Positions 42,396-52,449 of a stretch of DNA of 64,000 nucleotides are shown in pieces. A program made the translations under genes and the position numbers. Source of the stretch: Rhodobacteraceae bacterium Water-Bin34 (lineage in GTDB: Bacteria; Pseudomonadota; Alphaproteobacteria; Rhodobacterales; Rhodobacteraceae); contig FZLS01000001.1 of NCBI GenBank assembly GCA_900197625.1, forward strand, positions 124,001-188,000, in the 5' to 3' direction. The notes beneath the pieces were generated by a model that was given only the letters and a program-made list of their open reading frames with translations, was not told the DNA's origin and ran no database searches. Within the stretch, counting starts at the first letter, position 1. Each line of letters opens with the position of its first letter.

Positions 42396-42407
42396 TTTGT
42401 GATCACA
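42396..42407. promoter_or_regulatory. TTTGTGATCACA operator, copy 1 (gntR start)
   Basis: TTTGTGATCACA, six bases before the ATG of the GntR gene (42414). The core TGTGATCACA (42398-42407) is a perfect palindrome. A GntR-type dimer bound here would block the start region, so autoregulation is likely. Identical to the three sites listed near sucC and sdhC. Confidence 0.65.
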
Positions 42408-42413
42408 TGAAGT

Positions 42414-43055
42414 ATGAATGAACTTGATCTGTCATTAACTAGTCATGAAGCTGTCTATAGGGCGCTTAGGGTAATGATTATGCATGGAGAACTTGAGCCA
42501 GGCCAGTCACTTACAATTCGAGGTTTAGCTTCAAACTTTGGTGTTTCTATGACGCCTGCAAGAGATGCAGTTCGTCGTTTGAGCGCTGAAGGTGCATTAA
42601 GTATTTCATCTACTGGAAGGGTCGGTACACCGGAGTTATCAAACGAAAGGATTGAAGAATTAGCATCAATTCGAGCACTTTTAGAGCCAGAACTTGCATC
42701 ACGCGCCCTGCCTCGGGCTCATTTGAACTTGTTGGAAAGGCTTAGCAATATTAATAGTTCAATTGATCAAGCAATTGTTAAAGATGATGCTGTTGATTAC
42801 ATTAGGCGAAATTTAGAATTTCATAGAACATTATATTTACGCGCTCAAGCCCCTGCAATGTTAGCTCTAGTCGAAACAGTTTGGTTACAATTAGGCCCAA
42901 CAATGCGATCTTTATATTCACAATTACAAAGACGAGAAGCGTCTCACAACCATCGACTAGCAATTGCAGCATTAAAAGTAGGTGATGAGCCGAGTCTAAA
43001 GCTTGCGATCAGAGCAGATGTTACTCAAGGATTACGAATGCTTACAAATGAATGA
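42414..43055 (+). CDS. GntR family regulator (FCD/FadR subfamily), candidate TCA regulator
   Basis: 213-residue regulator. N-terminal winged helix (about residues 10-75: IMHGELEPGQSLTIRGLASNFGVSMTPARDAVRRLSAEG) and C-terminal FCD ligand domain (80-205) with NLEFHRTL and SHNHRLAIAAL as probable metal or ligand residues; the usual last His is Asp in IRADV. It is convergent with lpdA at the edge of the TCA cluster. An operator-like palindrome overlaps its start, and identical ones lie upstream of sucC and sdhC. Its effector may be a carboxylate, as for other FCD regulators; that is inference. Confidence 0.9.
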   Translation: MNELDLSLTSHEAVYRALRVMIMHGELEPGQSLTIRGLASNFGVSMTPARDAVRRLSAEGALSISSTGRVGTPELSNERIEELASIRALLEPELASRALPRAHLNLLERLSNINSSIDQAIVKDDAVDYIRRNLEFHRTLYLRAQAPAMLALVETVWLQLGPTMRSLYSQLQRREASHNHRLAIAALKVGDEPSLKLAIRADVTQGLRMLTNE

Positions 43056-43093
43056 ATATTAATTCACTTAATGCTATTGATTAATGAGCTAAC

Positions 43094-44476
43094 TTAAGCA
43101 TGGATTGCGCCATCTCCACACGCAAGGGCAGCCTCACGGATTGCTTCTGAAAATGTTGGATGTGCGTGGCAAGTCATGGCTATATCTTGAGCTGATGCTC
43201 CAAATTCCATTGCGACGCATATTTCGTGGATTAAGTCACCTGCAGCGGGTCCAATTAAATGACAGCCTAAAATTCGATCTGTATTAGCATCTGCTAGTAT
43301 TTTCACAAATCCTTCCCCTTGGAAAACTGCTTTTGCTCTACCATTGCCCATGAAACTAAACTTTCCAACTTTGTATTTTATTCCGGCACTTTTAAGTTCT
43401 TCTTCAGTTTTGCCAACATTAGCGACTTCTGGTGTTGTGTAGATTACCCCAGGTATTACTTCGTAGTTTACGTGGCCATGTTTTCCAGAAATGACTTCTG
43501 CAACAGCCATACCTTCATCTTCTGCTTTATGAGCTAACATTGGACCAGAAATAGCATCTCCAATTGCATAGATTCCATCAACAGAAGTCTGCCATTTTTT
43601 ATCTGTTTTGATTTGCCCGTTGTCAGTTAACTCGCCGCCAATTTCAAGAAAGTTTAGCCCATCTATAAAAGGTTTTCGTCCCGTTGATACTAGAACAATT
43701 TCAGTTTCTAACTTTGTAACTACATCTGATTTTTTGTAAGTAACATTCGCTTTGGTTTTAGTGCATTTTACAGCTTCAACTGCAGCACCTAATATGAATT
43801 TCAATCCTTGCTTTTTGAGAACTCTTTGAAAATTCTTTGAAATCTCCATATCCATTCCGGGTGTAATATGATCCATATATTCAATTATAGTTACATCCGT
43901 ACCAAGCCTAGAATAAATACTGCCCATTTCAAGTCCAATTACTCCTGCACCAATTACAATCATTGATTTTGGAATCTTTGATAATGATAAAGCACCTGTT
44001 GAAGTAACAATACGATTTTCATCAATTTCTACATTAGGAATTGATGATGGTTCTGATCCACTTGCAATAACAATGTTTTTTGCATCATAGATTTTTTCAT
44101 CCACAGAAACCCGGTTTTTATTAACAAATTTGGCCCATCCTTTAAGCCAATCTATTTTATTTTTCTTTAATAAAAATTCTATACCTTTTGTATTTTGAGA
44201 AATTACATCATTTTTGTAATTTTGCATTTTATTAAAATCAATTTTTGGATTACTTGTAATCAATCCCATTTTTTCAAAATTATGAGTGGCTTCATGATAT
44301 GAATGAGATGCGTGCAATAGAGCTTTTGATGGAATGCAACCAACATTTAAACAAGTTCCTCCCAAGGTATCTCTACCCTCAACAATTGCAGTTTTGAGCC
44401 CTAATTGTGCACATCGGATGGCACTAACATAGCCTCCTGGTCCGCTGCCAATCACGATTACATCATAATTTGTCAT
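43094..44476 (-). CDS. lpdA: Dihydrolipoyl dehydrogenase
   Basis: E3 flavoprotein of the 2-oxoglutarate dehydrogenase complex. 460 residues. FAD motif [10 protein letters not shown], redox Cys42/Cys47 in [16 protein letters not shown] motif [17 protein letters not shown], and the C-terminal His-Glu in [10 protein letters not shown]. Last gene of the suc operon, 71 bp after sucB. Confidence 0.96.
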
Positions 44477-44547
44477 TGAGGGCTATCCTTTCGAATTTTG
44501 ATGCAAATATCGATTTTTAACATCTGTTTTTTGAATATTTTCAACTT

Positions 44548-51091: not shown

Positions 51092-52054
51092 TTATGCAAG
51101 TGTTGGATCTATTGCTATACAAGCCTCAACAAGTCCCTTTACAGCATTCACCGACTTATCAAAACCTGCCTGTTCTTCTTCATTAAGTTTAATGTCAACA
51201 ATTCGTTCAACACCTGCGGCACCGATTACAGTAGGAACGCCCACATATGTATCGTTTAAACCATATCCAGATGAAACATGGGCAGCACATGGAAGTAAAC
51301 GTTTCTGGTCCTTTAAAAATGCTTCTGCCATTTCAATTGCTGATGCGGCTGGCGCATAATAAGCTGACCCTGTTTTTAATAACCCAACAATTTCAGCTCC
51401 ACCGTCTCTTGTGCGCTGAACTATTTCATCAAGTTTTTGTTGTGTAGTCCATCCCATTTCAATTAAGTCTGGTAAAGGAATGCCTGCAACTGTTGAATAT
51501 CTAGTTAAAGGAACCATTGTATCTCCATGGCCACCTAAAACAAATGCAGTTACGTCTTTAACAGAAACATTAAACTCTTCTGCAAGAAAGTGACGGAAAC
51601 GTGCACTATCTAATACACCAGCCATACCACATACCATTTCAGTTGGCAGGCCACTGAATTTTTGAAGTGCCCATACCATTGCATCAAGAGGGTTAGTTAT
51701 ACAAATCACAAACGCATTTGGCGCATGTTCTTTGATACCTTCACCTACTGATTTCATAACTTTTAAATTTATTCCAAGTAGATCATCGCGCGACATACCG
51801 GGCTTACGTGCGACACCAGCTGTTACTATGCAAACATCTGCTCCAGCAATGTCAGAGTAATCTGTTGTACCTGAAATTTTTGCATCATACTTATCGACAG
51901 GACCTGCTTCAGAGATATCTAGTGCCTTACCTTGTGGAATACCGTCAGCAATATCAAATAAAACTACATCACCTAATTCTTTCAAAGCTGCAAGGTGAGC
52001 GAGTGTACCACCAATCATACCTGAGCCGATTAGTGCAATTTTTGAGCGCGCCAT
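51092..52054 (-). CDS. mdh: Malate dehydrogenase
   Basis: NAD-dependent malate/oxaloacetate interconversion. 320 residues, the lactate-dehydrogenase-like type usual in alphaproteobacteria. NAD motif [13 protein letters not shown], substrate arginine loop in [13 protein letters not shown], and active-site His in [16 protein letters not shown] binding site before ATG. Terminated downstream. Confidence 0.97.
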
Positions 52055-52143
52055 TAGTAATCTCCATTTTGATAAAATTTCGCCCTCCTGCTAGTAGGAA
52101 AGCGCCTTGAGAGCAAGTAAGATATTAATTTTTTTATCTGTAC

Positions 52144-52199
52144 TGACTAATTTTGGTGTATTTGTTGTTGAATATGATGGAATTTGTTCTAATTAGTCA
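52144..52199. promoter_or_regulatory. Divergent mdh/DUF1737 promoter region with 9-bp inverted repeat
   Basis: TGACTAATT (52144-52152) and AATTAGTCA (52191-52199) are perfect inverted arms 38 bp apart. Read on the minus strand the outer arm contains TTGACT, a -35-like box for mdh. The arms may be a looped operator pair or two promoter elements. No TTTGTGATCACA site is in this gap. Confidence 0.35.
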
Positions 52200-52240
52200 A
52201 TTATATATAAGAAGAGCATCTAAATTAGAAAGCACTTAAT

Positions 52241-52444
52241 ATGATCGCATATCGATTATTAACTCATGAAGACACATCTGCTTTTTGCCACAAGGTTACA
52301 AAAGCACTTTCTGATGGCTGGGAGTTATATGGTGACCCTCAGTATACTTACGATGAAAAATGGTCTGTTATGAGATGTGCGCAAGCAGTGATAAAGAAAA
52401 GTAATATTGAATACAAAAGAGAATTGAAGCTAAGCGATTTGTGA
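52241..52444 (+). CDS. DUF1737 domain small protein, 67 aa
   Basis: 67 residues with the DUF1737 pattern YRLLTHEDTSAFCHKVTKAL and DGWELYGDPQYTYD. Function unknown; other members are short stand-alone proteins in alphaproteobacteria. ATG 52241 lies divergent from mdh. Its stop codon (52442-52444) is inside the fourth TTTGTGATCACA palindrome, just ahead of sdhC. Confidence 0.88.
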   Translation: MIAYRLLTHEDTSAFCHKVTKALSDGWELYGDPQYTYDEKWSVMRCAQAVIKKSNIEYKRELKLSDL

Positions 52445-52449
52445 TCACA
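52438..52449. promoter_or_regulatory. TTTGTGATCACA operator, copy 4 (upstream of sdhC)
   Basis: TTTGTGATCACA, core 52440-52449, overlapping the DUF1737 stop and 115 bp before the sdhC start. A half-like element TGTGATATCT (52505-52514) follows with its centre 65 bp away, about three 21-bp steps. Identical to the sites at gntR and sucC. Confidence 0.7.

Follow-up and report, generated by a model that had tools for sequence, protein, structure and literature searches.

Does a GntR-family gene lying beside a cluster of tricarboxylic acid (TCA) cycle genes control that cluster, and does it also control itself? The question is raised by a 64,000-nucleotide stretch of the genome of Rhodobacteraceae bacterium Water-Bin34 (contig FZLS01000001.1, positions 124,001 to 188,000 of the forward strand), referred to below as the window, in which positions are counted from the first letter. 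A preliminary description of the window had reported four identical 12-mers at the regulator gene and at the suc and sdh operons, and had proposed an autoregulated, dedicated TCA regulator. As judged from sequence comparison, the regulator is very probably an ortholog of AkgR of Rhodobacter sphaeroides that binds TGTGATCACA, the 10-bp palindromic core of the 12-mer, activates sucCDAB-lpd and sdhCDAB, and feeds back on its own gene.

The four sites were found exactly where they had been described, and the 64 kb contain no further exact copy of the core. The first 12-mer (TTTGTGATCACA, 42396..42407; core 42398-42407) is a candidate autoregulatory operator 6 bp before the ATG of the akgR-type gene (42414..43055, plus strand). 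Two more form a tandem operator upstream of sucC (49663..50871, minus strand), with a sucC-proximal palindrome at 50963..50974 (core 50965-50974) and a sucC-distal palindrome at 50986..50997 (core 50986-50995), their centres 21 bp apart. The fourth, the sdhC operator, is present here as a single copy at 52438..52449 (core 52440-52449), 115 bp before the start of sdhC at 52565. All four are exact matches to the 12-mer, which is on the plus strand in three of them and on the minus strand at 50986-50997. The half-sites of the palindrome have no spacer between them, and the description had correctly set the motif apart from CRP and FNR sites, whose consensus sequences are TGTGA-N6-TCACA and TTGAT-N4-ATCAA, respectively.

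The sites had also been called rare by chance, which holds for the window but not for the genome. Dinucleotide shuffles of the window contained on average 0.08 exact copies of TGTGATCACA, with four or more copies in none of 100. The whole genome (3,617,015 bp, 274 contigs) has five copies, four of them within about 10 kb at TCA genes and the fifth inside an mtaB-like coding sequence (named by eye). At least one exact copy is present in 288 of 292 genomes drawn evenly from the order Rhodobacterales. At genome scale, 4-5 copies are about as many as chance would give (0.08 × 56). Across the 33 genomes of the genus, a matched palindrome, GTTGATCAAC, has between 0 and 15 copies per genome, and since it is as common genome-wide, the raw count of TGTGATCACA is not evidence and per-genome counts of exact copies were dropped. 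The reversed control, ACACTAGTGT, is too lenient because it contains CTAG, a tetranucleotide that is rare in many bacteria. The signal of TGTGATCACA is its placement and conservation, whereas its raw count is not unusual. These ordinary totals are what could be said for the view that the copies are chance repeats of a common palindrome; against it stand the concentration of the copies of this genome at TCA genes and the conservation of pair spacing and positions across the order, which already refutes chance and leaves this view with a negligible probability.

To what extent the placement is conserved can be seen from a scan for two palindromes 18-23 bp apart in a collection of 84,980 species (by its own description), which gave at least 119 stretches. 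The matches listed (119 contigs) contain 123 pairs, spaced by 21 bp in 109 cases, by 20 bp in 11 and by 23 bp in 3, the last all outside Rhodobacterales by record title. Among these listed pairs, the nearest gene with a homolog in the window was sucC for 93 and sdhC for 20, together 113 of 123, and the others were nearest to mdh (4), gntR (2), sucA (1), a weak kinase match (1) or no such gene (2). For three of the four mdh-nearest pairs, the stretch ends just past mdh, where sucC comes next in others. The sucC pair stands upstream of the gene; its distance to the start set by the window open reading frame (ORF) has a median of 109 bp in 84 aligned sequences and is 95-119 bp in 80 of them. A gene order common among the inspected relatives runs sdhCDAB, mdh, the pair, sucC-sucD-sucA-sucB-lpd and a convergent akgR, followed by YgjP-like and FYDLN-type genes. 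Some of the inspected relatives have the sdh or suc part located elsewhere; in one genome of the genus (G017), sucCD has been relocated, and a site is found before the relocated sucC while the pair is still present before sucA (loci L224 and L225).

The sdhC sites, inspected by eye, are single copies at four of five loci in the genus, the fifth (L287) having an exact copy and, 32 bp away, another with one mismatch. In other genera, all 11 inspected sdhC loci have two copies within one mismatch, 20-21 bp apart. The motif is conserved before the orthologous sucC, sdhC and gntR genes, one of the points on which the preliminary description had staked its proposal. The degenerate copy that it had noted a further 20 bp beyond the sucC pair (ACGTGATCGA, 51005..51014) does exist here, but it shows no conservation among relatives and is probably not functional. 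As a candidate third site it was rejected: in 80 relatives, the mismatches 20-22 bp upstream of the pair resemble those at other offsets. No third site was seen by eye in the eight pairs from nine genus loci, the ninth locus (L289) having only one exact copy.

The akgR-type gene encodes a protein of 213 amino acids with an N-terminal GntR helix-turn-helix domain (PF00392, E=1.3e-14) and a C-terminal FCD domain (PF07729, E=1.3e-16), both above the Pfam cut-offs, which assigns it to the FCD subfamily of GntR regulators. The genome of the window has a single match to this protein at E ≤ 1e-10. At the same threshold, all 33 genomes of the genus have a match, which is near full-length with 65-100% identity in 30 of them (the genome of the window included), is split into two pieces in G008 and reaches only 35-36% identity in G015 and G028. 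Across the order, the protein is matched at E ≤ 1e-20 in 290 of the 292 genomes.

On a contig of 3,188,524 bp, which we take to be chromosome 1 of R. sphaeroides 2.4.1, genes and sites follow one another as sucA-sucD-sucC, a site pair, mdh, a second pair with both sites exact, sdhCDAB and gntR. The sucC pair there consists of one exact and one 1-mismatch site 21 bp apart, and the product of the gntR gene past sdhB is 70% identical to the window protein. In a tree of 40 rows, both proteins fall into one 27-row clade (99/98) that is free of paralogs and separate from the paralog clade; this orthology refers to the R. sphaeroides-like gene rather than to RSP_0981 by name. The accessible part of PMC4344238 gives the loci RSP_0965-62, RSP_0967-6, mdh (RSP_0968), sdh (RSP_0974-6) and the GntR regulator RSP_0981, or AkgR, which is predicted there to regulate suc (sucCD), sdh and 2-oxoglutarate dehydrogenase. 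Because the gene arrangement on the contig matches these locus numbers, its gntR gene fits RSP_0981/AkgR. In the portion of PMC6365646 available to us, AkgR is termed a transcriptional activator and its sites include the palindrome GTGATCAC. The same palindrome is found at the suc and sdh operons of the window.

On these grounds, we consider that the window regulator is an AkgR ortholog and that the system is the AkgR regulon, with regulator, targets and motif known in kind. A dedicated TCA regulator is thus supported by site conservation and by the AkgR literature, which has the same targets and the same palindrome, but the idea is not new. The window regulator resembles AkgR in its GntR family membership, its position adjoining the TCA cluster, its predicted suc, sdh and 2-oxoglutarate dehydrogenase targets and its palindrome. 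The two differ in location, the gene lying past sdhB on the R. sphaeroides-like contig and past lpd in the window, and in the operator at the start codon, which the window species and many Rhodobacterales have and the R. sphaeroides-like gene does not.

This start-codon operator was analyzed in 47 distinct akgR upstream regions, 30 from the genus and 17 from named genomes outside it. Exact palindromes are present in 39 regions, one with a single mismatch in three and one with two mismatches in one; four regions have none. For 38 of the 42 palindromes within one mismatch, the next in-frame start follows after 6-8 bp, and 34 of the 42 are preceded by TTGAC at exactly 12 bp. The combination TTGAC-N11-13-TGTGATCACA is present in 175 of the 292 Rhodobacterales genomes, almost always once (the reversed control was found in none), and it stands directly before the gntR ortholog in all 70 genomes compared. 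Among 52 upstream regions fetched from the 117 genomes without the exact TTGAC form, 22 have the operator with 0-2 mismatches. If the remaining matches are also located at gntR, the akgR operator would be present in about 197 of 292 genomes. Several genera have lost it.

The R. sphaeroides-like akgR start has no palindrome (the best match has four mismatches); TTGAC is kept there. A single loss of the operator in the Rhodobacter lineage was considered and ruled out, as the operator is also absent from several other genera. Four gntR upstream regions from lineages that lack the operator (L272, L306, L332 and L341) were seen by eye to have in common a GGTGCTTG-like stretch about where the palindrome sits elsewhere. 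Autoregulation is what we infer from the operator position only, and the contribution new here is an operator conserved immediately ahead of the akgR start codon, which predicts autorepression absent from the model organism. No text on AkgR autoregulation was found in the literature searched, which did not include the primary AkgR paper, and the accessible part of PMC4344238 has no match to 'autoregulat'.

How the circuit may work can be proposed from the geometry of the sites. The FCD/GntR protein very probably binds TGTGATCACA as a dimer, with one dimer per 10-bp palindrome as in the VanR-type FCD protein Atu1419 of Agrobacterium fabrum, for which the available part of PMC7797058 describes this stoichiometry on a 10-bp zero-spacer palindrome and a copy overlapping the -10 box. 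The two sucC palindromes, being 21 bp or two helical turns apart, would place both dimers on the same DNA face upstream of the promoter, and one palindrome (a pair in other genera) would serve upstream of sdhC. The most likely effect of the protein at these sites is activation of sucCDAB-lpd and sdhCDAB. In R. sphaeroides, AkgR is reported to bind its sites and to activate TCA genes directly (Imam, Noguera and Donohue, mBio 2015). At akgR, there is a single palindrome just before the ATG, and TTGAC would be the -35 box in most relatives. With a 17-bp spacer from TTGAC, the -10 box would fall within the palindrome's right half and transcription would start at or near the ATG, giving a leaderless akgR mRNA; protein bound there should block akgR transcription. 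The resulting circuit would activate the 2-oxoglutarate-to-fumarate segment of the cycle and exert negative feedback on its regulator. We infer the direction of regulation at each site, binding by the window protein and the sensing of a small carboxylate. A more specific proposal, whose chances we put somewhat short of even, is that operator geometry sets two modes: tandem operators spaced by 20-21 bp activate suc and sdh from upstream of the promoter, a single operator containing the -10 box provides negative feedback on leaderless akgR, and this loop was already present in the ancestor of Rhodobacterales and disappeared repeatedly, the R. sphaeroides lineage being one case.

Atu1419 is similar to the window protein in its FCD family and in the 10-bp zero-spacer form of its palindrome, but its palindrome is ATGTATACAT and it represses hydroxycinnamate genes. 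The VanR-type reading of DNA, Arg45 in S-R-T-P-x-R with G3 of ATGTATACAT, does not apply to the window protein, which has Met46 in S-M-T-P-A-R, the two positions being equated by motif rather than by structure. Met is the consensus at position 46 in at least 85% of 50 orthologs. Its presence in place of the base-reading Arg is in line with the different palindrome here. The fourth zinc ligand of Atu1419, a His, appears to be an Asp in the window protein, as judged from an alignment by eye. McbR of E. coli, whose target genes differ from those of the window regulator, is the closest solved structure by sequence (PDB 4p9f, E=4.4e-21, residues 17-207).

The promoter of sucC bears on whether the sites activate or repress. 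In 80 sequences, matches to TATA, TATC, TACTA or TAAAC show a peak roughly 100 bp from where the distal palindrome begins, a single 5-bp bin containing 29 of them; the high bins past 130 bp coincide with the start of the sucC coding region. This peak would place the sucC operators at about -86 and -107, positions suited to activation, whereas a nearer -10 box at 64-67 bp would place them near -50 and -71. The alternative that the same sites are repressor operators has the protein repressing suc, sdh and itself until a cycle intermediate releases it. Repressors are frequent among FCD/GntR proteins, the akgR site would suit one, and the sucC promoter position is not settled. Repression by Atu1419 through a palindrome overlapping the -10 box (PMC7797058, in part) is a further precedent. 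However, the conserved position of the sucC pair, upstream of either putative -10 box, is poor for steric repression, and AkgR is called an activator in the part of PMC6365646 cited above; repression at all sites is therefore unlikely in our view.

Several results weigh against activation by an AkgR ortholog with feedback on its own gene. Downstream of the sucC pair, the best standard promoter scores do not exceed those of shuffles (mean 4.80 versus 5.38), and the best -10 box has two favoured places, 64-67 bp (14 of 80) and 100-103 bp (17 of 80), with about four each in shuffles. A -35/-10 pair at sucC by the standard score was rejected for these reasons, and the sucC promoter position is therefore weak evidence. 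At akgR, eight of the 42 operator-bearing upstream regions lack TTGAC; the window species and its closest relatives are among these, which makes the window species the least certain case for the -10 placement. Thirty of the 52 upstream regions without the exact TTGAC-operator form have no operator within two mismatches, and akgR autoregulation is therefore not universal. Three genomes (G138, G254 and G305) carry the ortholog without an exact site, and G218 has only a distant regulator match (9.8e-34) and no site. In turn, G306 has no ortholog match and yet two sites, and G101 has no detected ortholog and yet keeps sites before sucC and sdhC.

Sites without a detected ortholog, as in G101, would be expected if another DNA-binding protein used them and the neighbouring gntR were a bystander. 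The palindrome is also present before or near other FCD genes, and the motif alone is therefore no proof of AkgR. Two gammaproteobacterial contigs (L135 and L140) have 23-bp-spaced pairs before FCD/GntR genes whose products are 38-44% identical to the window protein; their neighbours, named by eye, include a putrescine-binding protein gene and, in L140, glutamine-synthetase-like and aminotransferase genes. A contig from another alphaproteobacterial family (L235, G050:C1:1114000-1133000) has four copies, including a 22-bp-spaced pair, around an FCD gene of 34% identity flanked by ORFs for a TonB-type receptor and a racemase/dehydratase (by eye). The available text of PMC6365646 proposes that the GntR-like PS417_07240 of Pseudomonas simiae, 32% identical to AkgR, binds GTGATCAC, but it stands before deoxyribonate oxidation genes and not at the TCA cycle. 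These other users of the palindrome are, however, themselves FCD/GntR relatives. The genome of the window has, as noted, one protein of the akgR type, and in many genomes gntR itself carries the palindrome. At paralog loci, no exact copy was present in any of 11 inspected, one having a 1-mismatch copy about 1.4 kb away. Use of the sites by another protein is accordingly very improbable, still more so than repression, and the AkgR ortholog is retained as their user. A further contig (L124, JAHVJD010000010.1) is titled Nocardioides marinus and has a Rhodobacterales-like mdh-sucC (82% and 70% identity); it is probably a mislabelled or mixed assembly.

Whether the motif is scattered in unrelated places, which the preliminary description had named as a ground for refutation, was addressed by inspecting further exact copies in ten genomes (G021, G031, G017, G004 and G030 of the genus, and G308, G090, G272, G239 and G355), counting the listed copies away from the suc, sdh and akgR loci and the G050 stretches. 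Of these 36 copies, 31 lie within the longest ORF, picked mechanically and in some cases perhaps spurious, and the regulon was not extended past akgR, suc and sdh. The five copies outside ORFs are in L219, L225 (two, one of them before sucC), L240 and L243. Position 1501 of L222, between sdhC and mdh, is also an intergenic copy. A 365-bp spacing common to sites of G017 and of G090 and G129 was taken as coincidence, the gene contexts of G017 and G090 being different.

The remaining features of the locus were mostly named by eye from their ORFs. On the minus strand, sucC (supported by matches in relatives) is the first gene of the suc target operon and is followed by sucD (48759..49658), sucA, for the 2-oxoglutarate dehydrogenase E1 component (45731..48691), sucB for E2 (44548..45726) and lpd for E3 (43094..44476), the last convergent with akgR; these assignments agree with synteny in relatives. 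Upstream of sucC lies mdh (51092..52054, minus strand, also matched in relatives), and the first operator encountered upstream of its own start, at a distance of about 385 bp, is that of sdhC. The sdhCDAB target operon (52565..56354, plus strand) has ORFs at 52565, 52957, 53352 and 55575, again with synteny. Between mdh and sdhC, a DUF1737 gene of 67 amino acids (52241..52444, plus strand; PF08410, E=7.2e-26) ends in a TGA that forms part of the TGTGATCACA sdhC operator, and because of this overlap the sdhC copy is not purely intergenic. On the other side of akgR are a YgjP-like metallopeptidase gene (41677-42384) and an FYDLN_acid gene (41220-41561), which accompany akgR in most akgR loci inspected.

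These results suggest that nearly all Rhodobacterales possess a transcription factor, described from R. sphaeroides, for the lower half of the TCA cycle, and that its operator can be read from sequence. The common palindrome at FCD genes of putrescine, deoxyribonate and TonB-receptor type suggests a subfamily in which the DNA code stays the same and the target genes change. If the predicted feedback loop is true, it would be invisible to studies in the model organism R. sphaeroides, and its absence there would make comparative tests easy.

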